A DNA stretch of 64,000 bases from positions 310,001 through 374,000 of the forward strand of contig NZ_CP133592.1 of assembly GCF_031312595.1 (NCBI RefSeq), in the 5' to 3' direction. Origin of the DNA: Methanolobus sediminis. GTDB taxonomy: Archaea > Halobacteriota > Methanosarcinia > Methanosarcinales > Methanosarcinaceae. Positions 49,121 to 62,983 of this stretch are shown here, piece by piece. The translations under genes were made by a program, and so were the position numbers. Under the pieces are notes generated by a model. It ran no database searches. It was not told the origin of the DNA and saw only the letters and a list, made by a program, of their open reading frames with translations. Each line of letters opens with the position of its first letter. Positions within the stretch are counted from its first letter, which is position 1.

Positions 49121-50923
49121 ATGATGCTGGAAAGCAAATGTATAATTATCGCAGGAGAAGAAGCCGGACCCAAGTCCAATAAGATGGGGGGCATATGGAA
49201 TGTCATTGATGCTGAAGCTAAGAACCTTGCAAGTCTGATCGCAAAAGGAGTCATCGATGAAGCTCCTGCTCCAACCATAGTTGTTGCAGGACCTTACTAC
49301 GGCCACAGTGGTTCAGACTGGAACATAGGGCTGAATCGTATCACAGACATGAGCGAGTTTGAAGAACTTGAGCCAGAAGGTCCTATTTTTGAAGCCATTG
49401 AGAATCTGAAAATAAAAGGTATTGAAGTGTTCCCTGGCGTTGAGACTGTACATGATGTGAAAATAATATATCTAATGTTCAAGACAAATGATTTTTGCCG
49501 TGTAAGTGTGGAATACAAAAAAGAGGAAACATGCCTGGCAAATGCTATCAAAGGAGAAGCATATGAGTTACTAGGTCTGGATTCCATGACATATGAGAGT
49601 ATGGGCAACGGCACAGAATACAGTCATTATGTTAATTTATCTTATGCAATCTCAGAATTTGTGAAAGAACTGGTTACATCAAGGGAGACAAGTTCCGAAG
49701 AATATGAAGACAAAGCGATTTCCGAGTTTGCAGCATCCCTGATGCCTGCGGTCCACGTCTCACTTCACTGTCATGAGTTCGGTGTATTCTACGCACTTGC
49801 AAGACTTAAGAAACTGGGGATAAGTGTAAGGAGTGTTGCAACATACCATGCAACACTTCCGGGAAGATCTTCAGGACACAAATCCATACAGAAGATCAGG
49901 GAAAATGACAGTTCATGGGACAGTGGAGTTCCTGTCAACTTCGCCAAACTGGAATCATTATCAGGATTTGCAGATGTTGTAACTGCCGTTGGTGATTCCA
50001 CACGCAAGGAAATAAAACTCTTCTATGGAATTGATTCGATTATTGTCCGTAATGGAATAGACAGTGAAGAAGAAGACGTAGAATGGGAAAAGAAAACAGA
50101 GTGCAGGGGAAGGATACAGAACTTCCTTTCGGAGAAGTTATATGCAGTATACGACGGTAAAGCAATACCTCCTGAAAGGATAATACCCATTTTTTCAATA
50201 TCACGTATTGAGATCGAGAACAAAGGTTATCCTGACCTGCTGGATTCACTTGTCCTCCTTGACAGGATGGTCAAGGTCGAGATCGATGCAGGACATCTCG
50301 ATGATAAATACCGTGTTGTCTGTTTTATAATAGCAGCTCACGGTCCGAAAACCAATCCACCTGAGAATTTCCCTATAAACCTTCCGGAAGAAACATTGGT
50401 TGGAGAAGAAATACGCCTCCAGCAAATGATAAAAGCCCGAGGATTGGATTGCTCGAAACTTACCGATGGCAGCAGACGTGTCTCAGCAGTCCTTTACCCA
50501 CAATGGATCTCTGACCATGACGGCGGACTTAATATGAGGTCCGATGAACTCATGGCAGGGTGTATTGCAGGTGTATTCCCTTCAAAGTACGAACCATTCC
50601 TGCTTACAGGACTTGAAGCCGGAAAAGAAGCAACCCCAAGTATCGTTAGTAAGATATGCGGGTTCAGTGATGCTCTCAAGACCCTCAAAAGACTTGTTAT
50701 GGGAATGGGAGGAGTCATTGTTGTTGACAACATTAACATCCCGTATCTGGAATCAATCGCAGACTATGCACTTGCAATGGATTATTTCATTGACACATTC
50801 ACCGATGACAAAGTAAAGTACAACCTTCTTTGCCAGGAAGCAAATCTCCTTGCAAAGGACATGAACTGGGAAGAACCAATCAAAACTTATTATGAACTTT
50901 TAACCGGAACAAGAATGGAGTAA
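49121..50923 (+). CDS. Glycogen synthase, GT3-like
   Basis: 600 residues. The GT-B enzyme starts with GPKSNKMGGIWNVIDAEAKNL, comparable to the KxGG donor motif, and has VSLHCHEFGVFYAL, VATYHATLPGR, and the donor-site FPSKYEPFLLTGLEAGK near residue 485. These features match the GT3 glycogen synthase family (GYS-like) rather than the bacterial GlgA family (GT5). It would elongate alpha-1,4-glucan from UDP- or ADP-glucose in the cytoplasm. Two ATGs (49121, 49124) follow the GGGAGACGGG site. First gene of the long rightward cluster. Confidence 0.88.
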   Translation: MMLESKCIIIAGEEAGPKSNKMGGIWNVIDAEAKNLASLIAKGVIDEAPAPTIVVAGPYYGHSGSDWNIGLNRITDMSEFEELEPEGPIFEAIENLKIKGIEVFPGVETVHDVKIIYLMFKTNDFCRVSVEYKKEETCLANAIKGEAYELLGLDSMTYESMGNGTEYSHYVNLSYAISEFVKELVTSRETSSEEYEDKAISEFAASLMPAVHVSLHCHEFGVFYALARLKKLGISVRSVATYHATLPGRSSGHKSIQKIRENDSSWDSGVPVNFAKLESLSGFADVVTAVGDSTRKEIKLFYGIDSIIVRNGIDSEEEDVEWEKKTECRGRIQNFLSEKLYAVYDGKAIPPERIIPIFSISRIEIENKGYPDLLDSLVLLDRMVKVEIDAGHLDDKYRVVCFIIAAHGPKTNPPENFPINLPEETLVGEEIRLQQMIKARGLDCSKLTDGSRRVSAVLYPQWISDHDGGLNMRSDELMAGCIAGVFPSKYEPFLLTGLEAGKEATPSIVSKICGFSDALKTLKRLVMGMGGVIVVDNINIPYLESIADYALAMDYFIDTFTDDKVKYNLLCQEANLLAKDMNWEEPIKTYYELLTGTRME

Positions 50924-53140: not shown

Positions 53141-54205
53141 ATGAAGAAATTGTTTTATAAATCGTCAAGGAAAGCAGGACTCGTACCGGGTACCTTGATA
53201 CATATTGGTGAAGAAAGAACTGAGAAACCAAAGATAACCATTATAGACTACGACAAAGAGAACTATCAGGAACGTGTAGTTGAAAATGTAGAAGAATGTT
53301 TTCCTTTCAAGGACTATCCTACTGTTTCATGGATCAACATTGATGGAATCCATCAGGTAGATATTATTGAAAAACTGGGAAAACATTTCGGACTCCATCC
53401 TCTTGTAATGGAGGATATTGTACACACAACACAGCGTCCGAAGATGGAGGATTACGATTCCTACATCTATATTGTCCTGAAAATGCTCTGGTTCAATGAT
53501 GGCGATATTGATGTTAAAGCAGAACAGGTAAGCATCATTCTTGGTGAAAATTTCGTCCTGTCATTCCAGGAGCTTGAAGGCGATACTTTCAATTTTGTCA
53601 GGGAAAGGATACGAAATTCAAAGGGCAGGATAAGGCAAGTGGGAGCCGATTACCTCGCGTACGCACTCCTTGACTCTATTGTTGACAATTATTTTATTAT
53701 CATTGAAAAGTTCGGAGAGAGAATTGAAGACTTAGAGGAGGAACTTGTGGAAAATCCGGATCCAGGGACTCTTCAGAACATACACGACCTGAAAAAAGAA
53801 ATGATATATATGCGCAAATCAGTATGGCCTCTCAGGGAAGTTATCAGCGGTCTGGATCGCTCGGAATCATATCTCATAAAAGATACGACATTCGTGTTCC
53901 TTAAAGATATTTACGACCATACAATACAGGTTGCAGATGCCATTGAAACATACAGGGACATTCTTTCCGGAATACTGGATGTTTACCTCTCAAGTATTAG
54001 CAACAAAATGAACGAGGTCATGAAAACACTCACAATAATTGCAACCATATTTATCCCCCTGACCTTCCTTGCGGGAATGTACGGAATGAATTTCACTTAT
54101 ATGCCTGAACTGGGATGGAAATGGGGTTACCCAGCTGTTTGGGTAATTAATATCTTGATATGTATTTCTATGTATGTATATTTCCACAGGAAGAACTGGC
54201 TTTGA
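53141..54205 (+). CDS. corA: CorA family magnesium/cobalt channel
   Basis: 354 residues. Large cytoplasmic N-terminal domain, long stalk helix (about 200-290) and two C-terminal helices; the GMN motif that forms the pore entrance is seen in GMYGMNFTYMPELGWKWGYP near residue 308-327. It carries Mg2+ (or Co2+/Ni2+) by membrane potential. ATG start after GTGTGGGGTTAGAAC. It is inserted in the alpha-glucan gene cluster without gap to neighbours, so its expression is tied to those genes. Confidence 0.93.
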   Translation: MKKLFYKSSRKAGLVPGTLIHIGEERTEKPKITIIDYDKENYQERVVENVEECFPFKDYPTVSWINIDGIHQVDIIEKLGKHFGLHPLVMEDIVHTTQRPKMEDYDSYIYIVLKMLWFNDGDIDVKAEQVSIILGENFVLSFQELEGDTFNFVRERIRNSKGRIRQVGADYLAYALLDSIVDNYFIIIEKFGERIEDLEEELVENPDPGTLQNIHDLKKEMIYMRKSVWPLREVISGLDRSESYLIKDTTFVFLKDIYDHTIQVADAIETYRDILSGILDVYLSSISNKMNEVMKTLTIIATIFIPLTFLAGMYGMNFTYMPELGWKWGYPAVWVINILICISMYVYFHRKNWL

Positions 54206-54240
54206 ATATAAAAGAGTAACAAAACGAGTAACGATCCAAG

Positions 54241-54957
54241 ATGTTTGAGATATATCACCCACCATTCACTACAGAAGCTGAAGACACTGAAATAATAGTT
54301 GAAAAACAGGGAGATGACCTTATCTATAAACGCCTGTTCAGGGGAGATGAAGAAAGAGAACTTGTTTTGTTAAATAATGATGGGGATATAATAATTAATC
54401 CTATTGAACCGGTAAACCTTCCTGAAAGTATCACGGCTTTTCTAATGGTAGATTTTAAGCGATCAGCAATGATCCGACCGGGAGATAAAAAGAAGATCTA
54501 TCTCAAATTCCCCGTCGAGATTGGGGTCTTTGTTACTGACAAATCCAGAAAGAACTATGAAGTTATCGATGTTTTTACATTAAACAAAATTAAGTACACA
54601 CTTTACGGAAGTCATACACAGGGAATGATCTGCAGGCACTGGGAAAGTGACATCTATACAGAAGAACCAGACACTGATAATCTCTATGAAGGATTTATTG
54701 AACTGGAAATATCCAATGAGTCCAATCACCAGATGGAAATTACAAAAGCAATATTCAATGCCTACGGTATGAAACTCTACTTTGGGGACAAAAGACTTGG
54801 TATGAAAGCCAGTATGAGAATCATAAACAAACTACTCGCTGAAACGGATTTTAGTACCTATCCTACAACATCCAGGTTCAAGCGTTCGATGGAACTCTAT
54901 ACGGCACGTAAACTTGCAATAACAAGCACAAAGGGAATCATGGAGTTTGGCACATGA
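54241..54957 (+). CDS. DUF432 family protein
   Basis: 238 residues, soluble, acidic, beta-rich. It fits the DUF432 family from memory (MFEIYHPPF start, VDFKRSAMIRPGDKKKIYLKFP and YGSHTQGMICRHWESD in the middle), known mainly from methanogens and neighbours of MscS genes. The function is not known. Its stop overlaps the MscS start by four bases (ATGA), so the two are made together and the protein may regulate or sense the channel; that is inference. Confidence 0.78.
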   Translation: MFEIYHPPFTTEAEDTEIIVEKQGDDLIYKRLFRGDEERELVLLNNDGDIIINPIEPVNLPESITAFLMVDFKRSAMIRPGDKKKIYLKFPVEIGVFVTDKSRKNYEVIDVFTLNKIKYTLYGSHTQGMICRHWESDIYTEEPDTDNLYEGFIELEISNESNHQMEITKAIFNAYGMKLYFGDKRLGMKASMRIINKLLAETDFSTYPTTSRFKRSMELYTARKLAITSTKGIMEFGT

Positions 54958-55823
54958 GTAATAACAGCACCATTAGTAGTGTTTATTCATATATACCAGC
55001 ACTCTCAGACCCATTCGTTCAGATAACAACAGTAGTACTTGTTCTTTTCTTTACAATATTAATAGCAAAAGGCATAACGATCTATTTACAGAGGTCGCTT
55101 AATGACAAGATGGATAAGGAGCACCTGAACATCCTTATAAAATCCATCTATTACGGAGCAATCGTTATTGCTGTGGTAGGAGTTATTTTCCCTTATCTTC
55201 AGATTAATACCTCTGGCCTTCTTGTTGCAGGAGGAGTTGTGGGTATTGTTCTTGGTTTTGCCAGCCAGAGTATAATGGGCAATTTGATTTCAGGTGTGTT
55301 CCTCATGATTGAACGCCCCATAAAGATTGGCGATCAGGTAAATATTGACAACAAAATGGGTTTTGTAGAGGACATTAAGATAATCTCTACCATAATCCGC
55401 ACCTATGATGGCCTTTTCATCAGGCTTCCCAATGAAACGGTTTTTACAACCAGCATAACAAATTATGTTGCAAACCTTACAAGGAGGTTTGAATACGTGG
55501 TGGGAATCAGATACAGCGATGATGCTGATGAAGCAATAAAGATCATCAAGGACATAATTGACAAGGAACCTTTTGCACTGGTAAACCCCGGGCCAAGTGT
55601 TTTTGTTGACACATTGGGTGACAATGCTGTCAATATCATTGTCAGGATATGGGCACCTGTAAAACAATGGTATGATATGAAAACCAGGCTTCTATGGATT
55701 ATCAAGAGAACACTTGAAGAGAACGGTATAGAAATCGCATTCCCACAGAGAACAGTATGGTTTGCCAGTGAACTGAACACCAGAAAGATGCCAGATATTT
55801 CAGAAACAGGATATGATAAATAA
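54954..55823 (+). CDS. MscS family mechanosensitive channel, second paralogue
   Basis: 289 residues. Helices near 25-45, 68-85 and 90-115 with VAGGVVGIVLGFASQSIMGNLISGVF as the pore-lining stretch and IERPIKIGDQVNIDN after it, then the beta and alpha/beta domains. It belongs to the short archaeal MscS group and would act as an osmotic safety valve. ATG overlaps the DUF432 stop; the stop codon abuts the start of the GH57-like gene (TAATG arrangement). The tight coupling to glucan enzymes is unusual. Confidence 0.92.
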   Translation: MSNNSTISSVYSYIPALSDPFVQITTVVLVLFFTILIAKGITIYLQRSLNDKMDKEHLNILIKSIYYGAIVIAVVGVIFPYLQINTSGLLVAGGVVGIVLGFASQSIMGNLISGVFLMIERPIKIGDQVNIDNKMGFVEDIKIISTIIRTYDGLFIRLPNETVFTTSITNYVANLTRRFEYVVGIRYSDDADEAIKIIKDIIDKEPFALVNPGPSVFVDTLGDNAVNIIVRIWAPVKQWYDMKTRLLWIIKRTLEENGIEIAFPQRTVWFASELNTRKMPDISETGYDK

Positions 55824-56992
55824 TGAAAGCCGTATGCGTTTGTTTTGAGGTACACCTGCCTTTGCCTTTAAGATGGTACTGGCCCGGGGAAGGATACGGA
55901 GATGCCCATGTCGAAAAATATTTTGATATGGAAAAAGCATTCCATAACTTCACAAAACTTGCCACAAACATTGAAACACTAAATGAAGCACTGGCTAAGT
56001 CCATCGATAACGGAGGCAAATACACCCTTGATATATCCGGTATTTTCCTTGAGCAATGCAAATGGGCACCTGAGATAATAGATGGTTTCCGCAAGCTTGG
56101 AAACAAGAATATCTCATTTGCAGCTTCACCATATTATCATTCTATATCATGCCTGTTCCCAAGCCTTGATGAATTCAGGAAACAGGTGGAAATGGATGTT
56201 AATATTATCAAAGACATTTTTGGAATAGAGCCTAAAACCTTTGTTAATACGGAGCTACTTTTTGATAAAAAGATAATGAAGATGCTCCATGAAATGGGAT
56301 TCCAGTGTTTTATTTCCGAAGGCTCCCACAACATTATGAACGGATACGACCCCATGCATGTTTATGATAACGAAGTGCCAACACTTCTGAGACATATAAA
56401 CCTGAGCGAGGATCTGGAAATCAAATTCTCAGACAGGGGATGGCCGGGATATCCACTTATAGCTGACAAATTCGCATCATGGATAGCAAGCATGAAAGGC
56501 GAGGTAATTACACTTTACATAAAATACGATGCTATCAACACTCATCTTCAGAAGAATGAAGGAATACTCGAATTCCTGCATGAGCTCCCAATATGCCTGA
56601 AAAAACATGGCGTGAAAATGTTATTAGCTGAAGAGGCAGTGGAAAGTTTCAAAAAAACAGAACTTTCTTCCCTTGAATCAAAAACAACATCACGTTATGG
56701 AATGAACAACCTGCTTGGAAATCATGCACAGCACCTGTTTATGCATGAACTGATTGATATGGGTGAGATGCTTGGAAAAATGGATGATGGCGAGAAGAAA
56801 GAAGAGCTTACAGAAATCTTCAGATGCCTTCAGCAGAGTGAAATATTCCTGGAAATGAATTCCGAGGAAAGAAGGCTTGGATATGAACGGGCTGTAAATG
56901 ACCTATCCATACTTTCAGATATAGAACGGGCAATTATTATAACTGAAGCTACAGAAAATGAATCTGCCGGGAAAAAGGAGGCATACGAATGA
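55823..56992 (+). CDS. GH57-like protein, likely catalytically degenerate
   Basis: 389 residues, paralogue of the next gene. The GH57 (beta/alpha)7 barrel can be followed: FEVHLPLPLRW replaces the usual HQP motif, the nucleophile Glu remains in NTELLFD (near 142), but the catalytic acid motif, D-Y-E-T-F-G in the neighbour, reads K-Y-D-A-I-N here (near 232). It may be an inactive partner or have changed specificity. Starts with an ATG at the last base of the MscS stop (TAATG), and its own end overlaps the next gene by four bases. The two may form a heteromer. Confidence 0.82.
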   Translation: MKAVCVCFEVHLPLPLRWYWPGEGYGDAHVEKYFDMEKAFHNFTKLATNIETLNEALAKSIDNGGKYTLDISGIFLEQCKWAPEIIDGFRKLGNKNISFAASPYYHSISCLFPSLDEFRKQVEMDVNIIKDIFGIEPKTFVNTELLFDKKIMKMLHEMGFQCFISEGSHNIMNGYDPMHVYDNEVPTLLRHINLSEDLEIKFSDRGWPGYPLIADKFASWIASMKGEVITLYIKYDAINTHLQKNEGILEFLHELPICLKKHGVKMLLAEEAVESFKKTELSSLESKTTSRYGMNNLLGNHAQHLFMHELIDMGEMLGKMDDGEKKEELTEIFRCLQQSEIFLEMNSEERRLGYERAVNDLSILSDIERAIIITEATENESAGKKEAYE

Positions 56993-58185
56993 ACTCTATC
57001 TGTCCTTTCTTTGAGGTTCACCAGCCATACAGACTAAGATGGTTCTGGCCTGACCACAAGCAGGGTTTTGAACGTTATTTTGACGAGACTGTCAACAAAG
57101 AGATTTTCCGCAAGGTTGCAGGAAAATGCTACATTCCTGCAAACAGAACACTGCTTGAACTTGCTGACAACACAGACGGTTATTTCAGGGCAAGCATGTC
57201 CGTCACAGGTACCCTGCTCGAACAATGTATGGAATGGGGAGAAGATGTCCTTGAATTATTCAAAGACCTTGCGGAGACAGGATGTATTGAATTCATTGAT
57301 GAAACATGCTATCACTCCCTTGCGTCACTTTTTGAATCAAAGGACGAGTTCATGGACGAGGTCAAAGAACACCGGAACCTCATGTCAGAACTTATTGGTG
57401 TGAAGCCACGGATATTCAGGAACACAGAGATGCTATACAACAACAGTGTTGCCTACTTTGCCGCAAAACTCGGATATGACGCAATACTGACAGAAGGCAT
57501 TGAGACTATACTCCATGGAAGGTCGCCGGACCATGTCTACAAAGCAAGGCATTCAGACATTGCAGTTCTTCTACGTAACTATAAACTCAGTGACGATATA
57601 GGTTATCGTTTCTCATCAAGATGGTGGGAAGAATATCCATTAACAGCAAGCAAGTGGGCAGACTGGGCTTCCTGGAAGCACGGAGAGACCCTTAACATCT
57701 TCATGGATTACGAAACATTCGGTGAACACCAGTGGAAAGATACGGGAATATTCGAATTCCTGAAAGCATTGCCAGGTGAAGTAAAGGATAGGGGTATGCG
57801 TTTCCTTACACCTTCACAGACCATAGATGCATACAAACCTGTAGGTGAGATAGACGTAGGAGACTTTTCCACCGTTTCATGGGCTGATATTGAAAGAGAT
57901 ACCAGTGCCTGGCTTGGCAATGACATGCAGCGCCGCTGTTTTGAGGAAATGAAATTGCTTGAACCGTATGTCAGGAAAACGAATGACCCCGAACTGCTCA
58001 GGATATGGAAACATATGCTTACGTCCGACCACTATTACTATATGAGTACGAAATGGCTTGGTGACGGTGACGTGCATTCATATTTCAGCATTCATAACTC
58101 ACCATATGATGCAGCAGTAAATTTCATGGCAGCTCTTAATGATTTTAAGTCTCAGGTGTTCAGAACTCTTAACCTACCAGCATAA
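56989..58185 (+). CDS. GH57 alpha-amylase-type glycoside hydrolase
   Basis: 398 residues. FFEVHQPYRLRWFW (HQP motif), ETCYHSL, RNTEMLYN with the nucleophile Glu (near 145) and MDYETFGEHQW with the acid Asp (near 239) are all kept, so it should be active on alpha-1,4-glucan (amylase or 4-alpha-glucanotransferase type). Cytoplasmic, no signal peptide, so it acts on internal glycogen. ATG behind an AAAGGAGG site inside the end of the upstream GH57-like gene. Shares length and fold with that gene, hence a tandem duplicate. Confidence 0.9.
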   Translation: MNSICPFFEVHQPYRLRWFWPDHKQGFERYFDETVNKEIFRKVAGKCYIPANRTLLELADNTDGYFRASMSVTGTLLEQCMEWGEDVLELFKDLAETGCIEFIDETCYHSLASLFESKDEFMDEVKEHRNLMSELIGVKPRIFRNTEMLYNNSVAYFAAKLGYDAILTEGIETILHGRSPDHVYKARHSDIAVLLRNYKLSDDIGYRFSSRWWEEYPLTASKWADWASWKHGETLNIFMDYETFGEHQWKDTGIFEFLKALPGEVKDRGMRFLTPSQTIDAYKPVGEIDVGDFSTVSWADIERDTSAWLGNDMQRRCFEEMKLLEPYVRKTNDPELLRIWKHMLTSDHYYYMSTKWLGDGDVHSYFSIHNSPYDAAVNFMAALNDFKSQVFRTLNLPA

Positions 58186-58228: not shown

Positions 58229-59038
58229 ATGGTAAGAGATCTTTACATGTTCTCAAGAGTGAACGAGGAAGCAGATGTTATCTGGTTCAAGGTTGCATAT
58301 GAGAACACAGTACATTCTGAGGCTGATATAACTTCTTTTTTTGCAGAGAAAGGACTTGATATTAGATTTGCATACCTGGATAGCTCAAAAGACCCGACAA
58401 AGGGCAAATATGTCATGTTCACGGAAGCTGAAAAAGGAAGAGATATCGAAAGTATTGCTGAAGAACTTGAAAGGATGGATGTAGTACACACGGTCAAATG
58501 GGGTTACTCAAAGAACCGGGCCATCCAGTCAGTGGATTTTCCACTGAGAATCCTGGGTCAAAGAGCCGTTCTTATAAGAGCAAAGACATTTGTGGATATA
58601 ATCAACATTATGAATGAGCAGGTTCCACAATCAGAAGGACTGCTCACTATCATCGGACTCCGAAATGGCGCCGGTGCTGCCGGATACATGAGGGAGATGT
58701 CAGAAATGAATGATGAAAACTTCCTTGACCTTCTGGGAGAGCTTTTTATGGCTGCCGGCTGGGGTAAAATAGAATATGACATCAATATTATCGAACTTAC
58801 CGGAAAGGTGCGGATAAAAGATTCTTTCATTGCCGAGGAAATTAGAGACAGTGATGTCCCTGTATGCACGTATATCAGTGCATTTCTTGCTGGATATATA
58901 TCAGAGTGCCTTAAAAAAGCAGTTCAGGTACGTGAATCCAGGTGTAAAAGTATGGGTAATGAAGACTGTGAGCATGTAATTTCGCCTGCTTCCTCAGGTG
59001 TGAAAATTGAGCACGTCCTCAGGGGAGAGTTACATTGA
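58229..59038 (+). CDS. V4R domain protein
   Basis: 269 residues. The C-terminal half is a V4R (4-vinyl reductase/hydrocarbon-binding) domain, shown by ESRCKSMGNEDCEHVI near residue 233-248 and by FLDLLGELFMAAGWG. The N-terminal 90 residues look like an ACT-like or ferredoxin-like ligand-binding fold. V4R domains bind small molecules or metals and often sit in archaeal signal proteins. Placed between GH57 and GH15 genes, it could sense a metabolite of glucan turnover. ATG with GGAGTT upstream; its TGA overlaps the next gene's TTG. Confidence 0.82.
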   Translation: MVRDLYMFSRVNEEADVIWFKVAYENTVHSEADITSFFAEKGLDIRFAYLDSSKDPTKGKYVMFTEAEKGRDIESIAEELERMDVVHTVKWGYSKNRAIQSVDFPLRILGQRAVLIRAKTFVDIINIMNEQVPQSEGLLTIIGLRNGAGAAGYMREMSEMNDENFLDLLGELFMAAGWGKIEYDINIIELTGKVRIKDSFIAEEIRDSDVPVCTYISAFLAGYISECLKKAVQVRESRCKSMGNEDCEHVISPASSGVKIEHVLRGELH

Positions 59039-61053
59039 TACGGCAACCTAATGCAATCCTCGGTAACGACCGATTGCTTGTTACAATGGGTAAGAAAGGT
59101 GAAATATTTGGGTTTTACTACCCTGGAAGAGATTTTGCTCAACATGTGGAAGACTCTCAATCATGTTTATACGATGGTAAAGGTCTCATCTGGTCTAATG
59201 CCCGTGAATGGGTTGCTGATCAAAAATACATCGAAAACACAAATGTGGTCAGTACAGAACTTACACATTCAAACGGTCTTAAAATGAACATACTCGATTA
59301 TGTTCATCCCAAACTGCCGGTATTGGTACGGAAATATAAAATAAGCTCTCAGAAAAAATTTACTGGTAAATTCTTCTATTACTCCAATTTCCAGGTTGGA
59401 GAAATGAAAAAGAAGAACTCTGCATTCTGTGATCATGATTCCGGGCTTGTGGCGCAGTACTGGAAGAACTATTACATCGGAATCAGCTCAACTCCCGTAT
59501 TCAAAGAATGGCAGATAGGAAAAGCAATGGACACAATATGGTGGACAAATGCCAAATATGATATGGAAGACGGAGAGCTACAGAAAAACAATGAAGATAT
59601 TGGTAACTTAAATTGTGCCATTGGATGGGACATTGATATTGATGCATCAAAAACAGCTGAATTCACAGTGTATATAGGTGCAGCCTCCAGACGACCTTCA
59701 CTATACAAGAGAATGAGGGAGATTCAGACGGAAACTCCTGAAAGCATATACAATGATGTGCAGGAAAAATGGATCAAATGGCTCTCCAGAAAAAAACTAC
59801 TGGAACTTCCTGATTATCTTGGTTTTGATACATTTAAGCAGGACATGCAAAAAGCATTCAACAGGTCATTATTAACACTTAGTTTGCTCAATGATCCCAG
59901 TAAAGGTTCGTTTGTAGCTGCTCCTGAATTCGATCATGAATTTGAAATGTGTGGAGGTTACGGATACTGCTGGAACAGAGACAGCGCAGAGATAGTGCTG
60001 TCACTGCTAAAGTCGGAATATCCGGAATATTGCTCGCGGTTCTTTAATTGGTGTAAAAACACCCAGATGCACGATGGTTCATGGTTCCAGCGTTACTGGC
60101 TTGACGGGAATACGGCACCTTCCTGGGGAAATTTTAGCTTTTCAACACAGATCGATGAAACTGGCAGCACCATATTTGCAATGGACCAGTACTATCGTAC
60201 ACTCCAACATCCTGTCAGGGAGGAGTTTCTTGATAGTGTATGGGCTACCGTGTTAAGTGCTGCTGAATATCTCATGAGGAGAACAGCTGAAGGTGTGCAC
60301 GATCCCTGTATATGCCTATGGGAAACACATACAGGAATCTTTACTTATACCAATGCTGCTATTTATGCCGGTCTTTTAGGCGCTGCCAACATGGCAATAG
60401 ACTATAATGAAAAAGGACTGGCTGACAGATGGACAGAAAGAGCTGAGTTCATCAAGAAAACCACCATTGAAAGATTCTGGCTTGATGAAGGATATTTTGC
60501 AAGGGGAATAACCAATGGACAGTTGGATACTGCAATTGATGCAAGTATCATAGGTACTTTTGTTCCTTTTGGAATGCTTGCACCTGAAGTTCCAAAAGAA
60601 AAAGAAATGATAAAATCCATCATTGAAAACATAGAGAAGCAGCTAAGGGTTCCGGTTAGTGATCATTTCGGTATCAAACGATATGTTGATGATAATTACA
60701 TTGAAGGGAATCCATGGATAGTTACAACCCTCTGGCTTTCAAAAGCAATGCTTGAAATGGCATTCATTATTGATCCTAACTTAGGGGAAACTGAGAACAG
60801 GGAACATAGGAAATTCACACATGATGCGTTAAAGTACATCCAGTGGTCACTCAAAGGAACAACTGGTGCTGGTATGCTTCCCGAACAGGTCAATAAGTAT
60901 ACAGGCCGTCCTGCATGGGCTATCCCGCTCTGCTGGAGCTGTGCACTTATGCTGGATAATATCCTCTTGCTTGATAAAATAGAAAGAAAACTAAACAGCT
61001 CAAAAGAGAGAGAGCACACTGGAATTACGCATGATATATTCAGATTATCATGA
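59035..61053 (+). CDS. GH15 glucoamylase-like glycoside hydrolase
   Basis: 672 residues: an N-terminal beta-sandwich domain (about 1-250) and an (alpha/alpha)6 barrel. GGYGYCWNRDSAEI (near 306-320), CLWETHTGIF with a candidate general acid Glu (near 428) and YIEGNPWIVTTLWL (near 555) are the GH15 glucoamylase pattern. It would release glucose from the non-reducing ends of alpha-glucan. No signal peptide, so it works in the cytoplasm. The start is a TTG in TTGA overlap with the V4R stop, behind AGGGGAGAG. The end overlaps the debranching gene by 23 bases. Confidence 0.9.
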   Translation: MIRQPNAILGNDRLLVTMGKKGEIFGFYYPGRDFAQHVEDSQSCLYDGKGLIWSNAREWVADQKYIENTNVVSTELTHSNGLKMNILDYVHPKLPVLVRKYKISSQKKFTGKFFYYSNFQVGEMKKKNSAFCDHDSGLVAQYWKNYYIGISSTPVFKEWQIGKAMDTIWWTNAKYDMEDGELQKNNEDIGNLNCAIGWDIDIDASKTAEFTVYIGAASRRPSLYKRMREIQTETPESIYNDVQEKWIKWLSRKKLLELPDYLGFDTFKQDMQKAFNRSLLTLSLLNDPSKGSFVAAPEFDHEFEMCGGYGYCWNRDSAEIVLSLLKSEYPEYCSRFFNWCKNTQMHDGSWFQRYWLDGNTAPSWGNFSFSTQIDETGSTIFAMDQYYRTLQHPVREEFLDSVWATVLSAAEYLMRRTAEGVHDPCICLWETHTGIFTYTNAAIYAGLLGAANMAIDYNEKGLADRWTERAEFIKKTTIERFWLDEGYFARGITNGQLDTAIDASIIGTFVPFGMLAPEVPKEKEMIKSIIENIEKQLRVPVSDHFGIKRYVDDNYIEGNPWIVTTLWLSKAMLEMAFIIDPNLGETENREHRKFTHDALKYIQWSLKGTTGAGMLPEQVNKYTGRPAWAIPLCWSCALMLDNILLLDKIERKLNSSKEREHTGITHDIFRLS

Positions 61054-62983
61054 AGGAACATCAAAGGAATGGCTGATCACTAACGGCCTTGGAGGATATG
61101 CATCTTCTACTGTGATAGGAACCAATACCCGAAAGTACCACGGACTTCTGGTTGCTTCCATGAATCCACCAGTAGAGAGAATGGTGCTGCTTTCTTCCCT
61201 TGATGAAGAACTATATACTGAAGATGGTGTTCACAAACTCGCGGTTCATAAATATCCGGGTGCAGTATATCCGAATGGTAACGAATACCTGAAAAGCTTC
61301 AGTGCTGAACCTTTACCGAAGTTTCTCTACAATTCTGGAGGGCTGATAATCAAGAAACATATTCTGATGGTAAATGGTGAGAACACCACCATTATAAAAT
61401 ATGATATTGAAAATCCTGGAAAAAAGAAGGCTTTTCTGAAGATTCTTCCTCTTGTCAACAGCAGGTCGATTCATCATCTTACCAAAGCTTCCGATATAAC
61501 CTTTTCTCAAGAAATTGCAGAAAATAGCATTCTAATAAAAGCTGCTTACCAGCAATTCAGCCTGATCTCGGACATGCTATACCAGACAGATGAACACTGG
61601 TACTATGATTTTGAATATGAGATGGAGCTTTCAAGAGGTTATCCTTATCATGAAGATAATTTCAATCCCGGTTTTTTTGAACTTGAAATAAATAATGAAC
61701 ACTGCTCATGTTTTGTGATCGCAAGCGCAGAATCCAATGAAAACTGGAAGAATGCAGACCTGCATGCAATAGATGAGCTAATACTCAGAGAAGAAAAAAG
61801 GATTCGTGACATTGAAACATCAAATGATAAAGATGATGTCTTTTTACAGAAACTGCTGATTGCGGGCGACTCTTTTATTGTTAACAGAAAGAGCACAGGT
61901 GCCAGGTCGATAATCGCCGGTTATCACTGGTTCGGTGACTGGGGAAGGGATACTATGATATCACTACCAGGTCTTACACTTGTAACCGGAAGGTTCGATG
62001 ATGCAAGGTCGATACTTTCCACTTTCGCGTCCAGTTGCAAAAACGGACTTATACCGAACCTCTTTCCTGAAAATCCGGCAGATTCACCTGTTTACAACAC
62101 AGTAGATGCTTCCCTGTGGTTCGTGCATGCGGCAGGTAAATACCTGGACTATACCGATGATCTGACATTTATTGAGAAGCTCTGGCCGACTATTATGGAT
62201 ATTGTAAATAACTATCGCAACGGAACTGACTATGGCATCAGGATGGATGATGATGGACTGATAGAACATGCCGGACAGCTCACATGGATGGATGCAAAAA
62301 TAGGAAACTGGGAAGTAACTCCAAGAAGAGGAAAAGCCTGTGAGATCAATGCCCTCTGGTACAATGCACTTGTCTATGCTGCAGATATGGGAGAAAAGCT
62401 TGGTAAGGATGTAGCGGGTCTTAGAAAAACTGCTGAGATCACGGCTGAAAGCTTCATGGAGAAATTCCATAATAATGAAAGGAACTGTCTTTATGACTGC
62501 ATCTCAGGTTATGGTGAAGACTGGAAAGATGCTTCCATAAGACCCAATCAGGTTTTTGCTGTATCTCTTACCCATACGATGCTGCCACATGAAATTGAAA
62601 AGGGAATTGTGGATATAATTAATGAAGAACTGCTTACTCCCTATGGACTACGGACACTCTCACCTGCTGATAGCAGATACATTGGATATTACAAAGGAAA
62701 TACTGAGGAAAGAGATGCAGCTTATCATACTGGTACCGTATGGCCATGGCTGCTTGGACCTTATATCACTGCATATGCCAGAGTCTACAAAGACAAAGCT
62801 GAAACCAAGGACAAGCTTAGAGATTTGCTGAAAGGAATTAAAAGGCACCTGGACACTGTGTGTATTGGCAGCATATCTGAGATATTTGATGGTGATAATC
62901 CTCATGAACCTGGCGGATGTATTTCACAGGCATGGAGTGTAGCTGAAATAATGCGTTGTTATGTTGAAAATATAAAGAAATAG
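61031..62983 (+). CDS. Glycogen debranching enzyme (amylo-alpha-1,6-glucosidase, GH133)
   Basis: 650 residues. The N-terminal ITNGLGGYASSTVIGTNTRKYHGLL is the hallmark of archaeal/bacterial glycogen debranching enzymes; GYHWFGDWGRDTMISLPGL (near 296-314) and HAGQLTWMDAK (near 414) are the catalytic-barrel motifs of GH133. It removes alpha-1,6 branch points of glycogen. ATG at 61031 inside the last codons of the GH15 gene, so the two enzymes are translated together. Cytoplasmic. With glycogen synthase, GT4, GH57 and GH15 it completes a synthesis and breakdown set; a phosphorylase is not seen. Confidence 0.92.
   Translation: MIYSDYHEGTSKEWLITNGLGGYASSTVIGTNTRKYHGLLVASMNPPVERMVLLSSLDEELYTEDGVHKLAVHKYPGAVYPNGNEYLKSFSAEPLPKFLYNSGGLIIKKHILMVNGENTTIIKYDIENPGKKKAFLKILPLVNSRSIHHLTKASDITFSQEIAENSILIKAAYQQFSLISDMLYQTDEHWYYDFEYEMELSRGYPYHEDNFNPGFFELEINNEHCSCFVIASAESNENWKNADLHAIDELILREEKRIRDIETSNDKDDVFLQKLLIAGDSFIVNRKSTGARSIIAGYHWFGDWGRDTMISLPGLTLVTGRFDDARSILSTFASSCKNGLIPNLFPENPADSPVYNTVDASLWFVHAAGKYLDYTDDLTFIEKLWPTIMDIVNNYRNGTDYGIRMDDDGLIEHAGQLTWMDAKIGNWEVTPRRGKACEINALWYNALVYAADMGEKLGKDVAGLRKTAEITAESFMEKFHNNERNCLYDCISGYGEDWKDASIRPNQVFAVSLTHTMLPHEIEKGIVDIINEELLTPYGLRTLSPADSRYIGYYKGNTEERDAAYHTGTVWPWLLGPYITAYARVYKDKAETKDKLRDLLKGIKRHLDTVCIGSISEIFDGDNPHEPGGCISQAWSVAEIMRCYVENIKK

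Follow-up and report, generated by a model that had tools for sequence, protein, structure and literature searches.

A degenerate GH57 protein inherited with one clade of intact GH57 amylases in Methanosarcinales may be a non-catalytic partner subunit

Why does Methanolobus sediminis carry two GH57 genes in direct succession in a glycogen gene cluster, when only one of them encodes a complete set of catalytic motifs? Both genes lie on the forward strand of the window, by which we mean the whole stretch of 64,000 nucleotides that was analysed. Gene A (55823..56992, with its ATG at 55823 and its stop codon ending at 56992) encodes a protein of 389 amino acids, which its motifs, its Pfam match and the alignment of its orthologues identify as a degenerate, alpha-amylase-like member of GH57. 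On the same kinds of evidence, gene B (56989..58185, with its ATG at 56989 and its stop codon ending at 58185) encodes an intact GH57 protein of alpha-amylase type with 398 amino acids. The two genes overlap by the four bases ATGA (56989..56992), and A in turn begins on the final base of the stop codon that closes an upstream gene for a mechanosensitive channel (MscS type, 54954..55823, forward strand). Both proteins score above the cut-off of 21.2 bits for the Pfam family GH57 (PF03065), A with 192.6 and B with 271.5 bits, and they are the sole GH57 genes found in the 2.8 Mb host genome.

B carries the motifs FEVHQP, FRNTEMLY and IFMDYETFGEHQW, and both DYETFGEH and the YYY of CSR-5 are present. 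Both members of its catalytic pair are there, Glu147 as the CSR-3 nucleophile and Asp240 as the CSR-4 proton donor. The motifs of A read FEVHLP, FVNTELLF and LYIKYDAINTH, which means that Leu12 stands in for the CSR-1 glutamine and Lys234 for the catalytic acid Asp, while Glu144 is retained at the nucleophile position. CSR-5 ends in Leu-Glu in A and in Tyr-Tyr in B. The GH57 alpha-amylase fingerprint, as given in the available text of PMC6037648, comprises a Glu that opens CSR-1, an Arg that opens CSR-3 and two Tyr that close CSR-5; B shares this fingerprint, and A departs from it at the end of CSR-5. The first-pass annotation of this DNA had read the motifs of A and B, the retained Glu of A and the four-base overlap in the same way, and all of these readings hold on the sequence.

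The arrangement extends well beyond M. sediminis. A GH57 match was found in 111 of the 185 genomes of the order Methanosarcinales, and these yielded 105 loci after omission of G026, G042, G043, G056, G144 and G174 (G144 holds A and a cut B, G174 part of one GH57 gene) and with the duplicate loci L001, L002 and L033-L041 excluded from the counts. B is present in all 105 loci and A in 97, and wherever A is present (97/97) it lies immediately 5' of B on the same strand, with an overlap of exactly four bases in 85 of the 97 two-gene loci when the first start codon is taken. The eight loci without a full A comprise two at a contig edge, where the tail of A is still visible (G184 and G075), and six that make up one family of the order, f4, which has B and lacks A. 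When contigs were scanned with A as the query, nine loci were retrieved, eight from Methanolobus and one from a Methanosarcinaceae bin. Outside the order, most of the matching genomes sampled from the class and the phylum contain just one GH57 of the B kind. Two genomes of the same class (family f6) have a reduced A of 328-329 amino acids ahead of B; in one of these two (L122, G185:C4), B is split by an in-frame TAG and A is intact. The comparison covered genomes up to the level of the phylum. Within this range, the A-B arrangement is old.

A degenerate GH57 protein of separate origin was seen in a genome outside the class, where a second GH57 (L156, G360:C9, 4712-6166, reverse strand) has Glu replaced by Gly and Asp by Asn; the intact GH57 of that genome (L157) is on a different contig.

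How far has the active site of A been dismantled? The first-pass annotation had noted the lysine in place of the acid and had proposed its conservation in orthologues as a check. When this was examined, Lys turned out to occupy the acid position in only 35 of 97 A proteins, next to Asn in 43, Asp in 14, Arg in 4 and Ser in 1, and the loss turned out to be far wider than one residue. Given this variability, we reject the idea that the lysine by itself defines A, and likewise that of a new conserved catalytic residue at the acid site. The nucleophile Glu is retained in 91 of the 97, with Gln in 4 and Asp in 2, and f6 A has a His at this position. Taken together, the nucleophile/acid combinations are E/N (40), E/K (35), E/D (11), E/R (4), Q/N (3), D/D (2), E/S (1) and Q/D (1), so that one or both catalytic carboxylates are missing from 86 of the 97; on the tree, at least four changes within A are required for presence or absence of the Asp, and at least three for the Glu. 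By comparison, 102 of the 105 B proteins have E/D, and the remaining three are cut or unread at the acid. Five further positions that are fixed in B (Asn197, Glu302, His348, Tyr351 and His363, in B numbering) have been lost from all 97 A proteins. More broadly, active enzymes have 78 columns conserved at 95% or above, and A retains 24 of these at 90% or more (37 A rows, f6 excluded).

The first-pass annotation had named retention of the catalytic Asp in orthologues of A as an argument against its inactivity. Such orthologues do exist, as the 14 with Asp and, among these, the 11 with both carboxylates show. However, the same 11 proteins also lack the five other active-site positions, so that keeping the Asp would not rescue activity. 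We consider it most likely, judging from the alignments, that A is non-catalytic throughout, with the case weakest for these 11, for which activity is possible.

Loss of catalytic residues has not been accompanied by loss of constraint. Across 143 pairs (dS between 0.05 and 1.2), A has a median dN/dS of 0.093 and B one of 0.066, and the medians for A by genus range from 0.09 to 0.18, with a maximum of 0.29 and a limited number of pairs in one genus. A is thus under purifying selection, even though it evolves faster than B (mean between-genus distance 0.87 versus 0.42 in 29 genomes). Distances in A and B are correlated (rho 0.71 in 29 genomes and 0.66 in 20 genomes, both given without a significance test). 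The partial correlation between the two is 0.55 given GH15 and 0.60 given the glycogen debranching enzyme (GDE), whereas the partial correlations of A or B with a neighbour gene are lower, between 0.03 and 0.42. Adjacency in 97/97 loci, purifying selection and losses at active-site positions other than the acid in every A make the pair of one active and one inactive GH57, as the first-pass annotation had called it, a well-supported description.

The histories of the two genes are linked as well. We built trees from 105 rows that were picked by length, with a ceiling of three or four per genus, and reran them without six long or odd rows. A forms one clade (support 100). A single branch separates the B proteins of A-bearing lineages from all unpaired B (support 98 with the six rows excluded), and the B proteins of f4, from the same order and without A, group with the unpaired amylases. 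Adjacency in 97/97 loci, together with one clade of A and one branch side of paired B, amounts to co-inheritance in the mode of plant ISA1/ISA2. Thirteen positions separate paired B from unpaired amylases, and f6 B is identical to paired B at 11 of them. Arg144, before the NTE motif, is present in 99 of 99 B proteins of paired lineages and in none of the six f4 proteins, all six of which have Glu; either Arg or Glu at the position before NTE is also seen in the published GH57 logo (PMC6037648, available text). Arg144 thus tracks the presence of A, but as a mark of a clade it may represent one event.

A C-terminal extension of 85-113 residues, missing from paired B and from f4 B, is found in most of the phylum's unpaired GH57 amylases (L147-L149, L151-L161, L164 and others). 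The idea that A substitutes for this extension was dropped, since the six f4 proteins and L145, L146, L162 and L163 have neither.

Which part of A is being conserved? Outside f6, nearly all A proteins keep a set of residues that are conserved in the enzymes (His11, Glu166, Gly167, Arg190, Asp197, Trp207 and Trp220), and His191, which is specific to A, is found in 37/37 sequences of one alignment and 96/97 of the order-wide set. The f6 A proteins have lost four barrel residues that are otherwise fixed in A (Glu166, Arg190, His191 and Asp197), yet they retain a series of C-terminal marks, namely Asn300, His301, Gln303, Gln338, Asn359, Ser362, Ser365, Asp366 and Arg369. Accordingly, identity between f6 A and other A drops to 11-26% in segment 136-290, whereas segment 319-345 shows 45%, compared with 44% between the other A genera. 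The picture is less clear-cut for segments 291-318 (24%) and 346-372 (39%, versus 53% between the other A genera). The C-terminal part of A is thus more constrained than the former cleft, a pattern more in keeping with a protein contact than with glucan binding. The first-pass annotation had offered a regulated heteromer or a glucan-binding scaffold; of these, the heteromer is most likely, and the scaffold is weakened, since in f6, which has the most degenerate A, the barrel residues shared with the enzymes are lost while the C-terminal segment persists.

The structure model of A (pLDDT 63) has the GH57 barrel fold, with GH57 structures as its top matches (1k1x, Z 19.4, rmsd 3.8 Å over 268 aligned residues) and deacetylases of the same barrel type next (Z up to 18.3), and its C-terminal stretch from residue 340 onward is poorly modelled. 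The model of B is poor (pLDDT 50). A sequence search of the PDB for homologues returned none that was convincing, with best E-values of 0.72 for A and 0.075 for B.

The neighbourhood places the pair in glycogen metabolism. The upstream side of A holds a glycogen synthase of GT3 type (49121..50923, forward strand, Pfam Glycogen_syn), a GalT-like protein, a GT4 glycosyltransferase, a CorA-type protein (a label that comes from reading its sequence and not from a profile match), a DUF432 protein and the MscS-type channel. Downstream of B, and likewise on the forward strand, the window contains a putative sensor with matches to ACT and V4R domains (58229..59038), a GH15 glucoamylase-type protein (59035..61053), whose best NCBIfam match, TIGR01577, is below its cut-off, and an archaeal-type glycogen debranching enzyme (61031..62983), with TIGR01561 above its cut-off and both GDE_N and GDE_C. 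The order A-B and then GH15, often followed by the debranching enzyme, recurs across genera in the loci long enough to judge. The synthase, GalT-like, CorA and MscS neighbours differ between genera, unlike the constant adjacency of A and B. Between the synthase side and A sit the CorA-type, DUF432 and MscS genes (53141-55823), which occur directly 5' of A in the genus of the window and in one g12 locus. In many genera, the protein with ACT and V4R domains separates B from GH15. V4R domains bind small molecules, and the protein may act as a sensor for the glycogen cluster.

Glycogen has been reported in Methanosarcina thermophila and M. acetivorans (PMC6355812, available text), and a debranching enzyme match (PF06202) is present in 117 of the 185 genomes of the order, A-bearing genomes included. 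The GH57 branching-enzyme domain BE_C (PF09210), in turn, was found in none of the 185, the genome of M. sediminis included. CBM48 occurs in eight of them; the one such protein that was read out, L169, is by our reading of TreX/GlgX debranching type. M. sediminis itself has one GH13 protein, without CBM48, 3.9 kb past the window. In the portions available of a 2024 review (PMC11046441), archaea without a classical branching enzyme are all said to retain a GH57 amylase or amylase-like protein, and GH57 amylase is posed as the possible missing archaeal branching enzyme. The same review lists AmyA (Saci_1200) of Sulfolobus acidocaldarius, an alpha-amylase and one of the nearest known counterparts, as a GH57-amylase. 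In that species, an amyA mutant does not accumulate glycogen, and expression of AmyA failed in every system tried (PMC8158581, available text). B alone, or A and B together, is thus a candidate for the branching step. In such a reaction, B would cleave an alpha-1,4 chain, which would stay attached to the B nucleophile while the bound A presents the acceptor chain, such that transfer to the 6-OH would win over water. That glycogen-storing Methanosarcinales have their missing branching enzyme in this pair is, in our estimate, a long shot. A restriction of A to genomes without a branching enzyme is unsupported, as a lone intact GH57 occurs in many genomes of the phylum that have neither A nor a CBM48 match. 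In f9 genomes (G346:C1, G458:C26, G305:C12 and others), a CBM48 match in a frame of about 660-680 amino acids makes a branching-enzyme-like neighbour, about 2 kb away, of a lower-scoring GH57 match.

The pairing, the dismantled active site, the purifying selection, the inheritance linked to one clade of B and the glycogen context are observations, and they suggest that the dead GH57 copy is a helper of the live one. Our preferred reading, to which we assign a probability of about one half (0.52), is that, in the glycogen operon of Methanosarcinales, the catalytic B has A, an ancient GH57 paralogue without catalysis of its own, as its partner subunit. We infer here that A is inactive, that it touches B and that it affects B. 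In this model, translational coupling would let A be made in step with B, A would bind B chiefly via its C-terminal helical part, and the bound A would stabilise B or set its specificity, with B cutting, and perhaps also transferring, alpha-1,4-glucan chains. B-type activity does not in general depend on A, given the intact GH57 amylases that many archaea carry without it, and f4 likewise has B alone. Shared constraint also arises between operon neighbours that do not touch, which weighs against the partner model.

An unlikely though coherent alternative is that A, alone or with the synthase, GH15 or the debranching enzyme, binds or senses glucan through what remains of the GH57 cleft and has no contact with B. 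The enzyme-conserved residues in nearly all A outside f6 and the near-fixed His191 would fit such a role, but f6 A has lost several of them, His191 included, and still adjoins B, and A is always beside B while the synthase and other upstream neighbours come and go between genera. A could instead be catalytically active through its retained Glu and a new acid, with a chemistry or a substrate that has changed, which we regard as improbable. The strong constraint on A, the nucleophile Glu in 91/97 and both carboxylates in 11/97 would be expected of an enzyme; the five active-site positions missing from all 97, however, argue against it, and with an acid that varies among five residues and a nucleophile that can be Gln, Asp or, in f6, His, no single chemistry fits the whole clade.

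A closer relative of the partner model would cast A as an antagonist, blocking B or holding it back until glycogen has to be used. It predicts the same pairing and co-inheritance, and the adjacent ACT/V4R protein hints at regulation in the cluster, but nothing separates it from an activating subunit, and the four-base overlap would favour a fixed ratio over conditional control; we regard it as quite improbable. Finally, A could be a decaying duplicate that hitch-hikes in the operon, in keeping with its lost catalytic residues and its faster evolution. With dN/dS far below 1 in all genera tested, A present in 97 of 105 loci and the four-base overlap kept in 85 of 97, decay has next to no probability, and we reject it on the dN/dS values.

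The protein class to which A belongs is already known. The GH57 alpha-amylase-like group was reportedly named by Janecek and Blesak in 2011. In the available text of PMC6037648, it comprises 126 sequences, 60 of them archaeal, and its members, like A, are close to the GH57 alpha-amylases and have one or both catalytic residues replaced, some having a complete machinery. For this group, that text speaks neither of a tandem arrangement with an alpha-amylase nor of selection or a role as partner, nor does the tandem A-B pair appear in the portions of the literature that our search reached. In that same literature, we did not encounter the strict pairing with one clade of B, the repeated and varied loss of catalytic residues or the retained C-terminal part. 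The sole characterised GH57 alpha-amylase named in the text of PMC6037648 is that of Methanocaldococcus jannaschii, in comparison with which B lies in a separate, A-linked clade, on a tree that did not include the M. jannaschii protein itself.

The nearest parallel comes from plants. ISA1/ISA2, as described in the available text of PMC12510319, likewise combines a catalytic glucan hydrolase with a long-conserved non-catalytic paralogue whose active-site residues vary, in the setting of storage-glucan metabolism. The two systems differ in that ISA1 and ISA2 are eukaryotic debranching proteins of the GH13 fold family, and that heteromers have been demonstrated there, whereas here we infer one.

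Gene deletion is feasible in Methanosarcina, and the pair occurs in Methanosarcina-like genomes. If A is indeed a conserved second subunit, there would be concrete ground for testing the enzyme as a pair and not alone, and archaea would gain a counterpart to the ISA1/ISA2 arrangement of plants.
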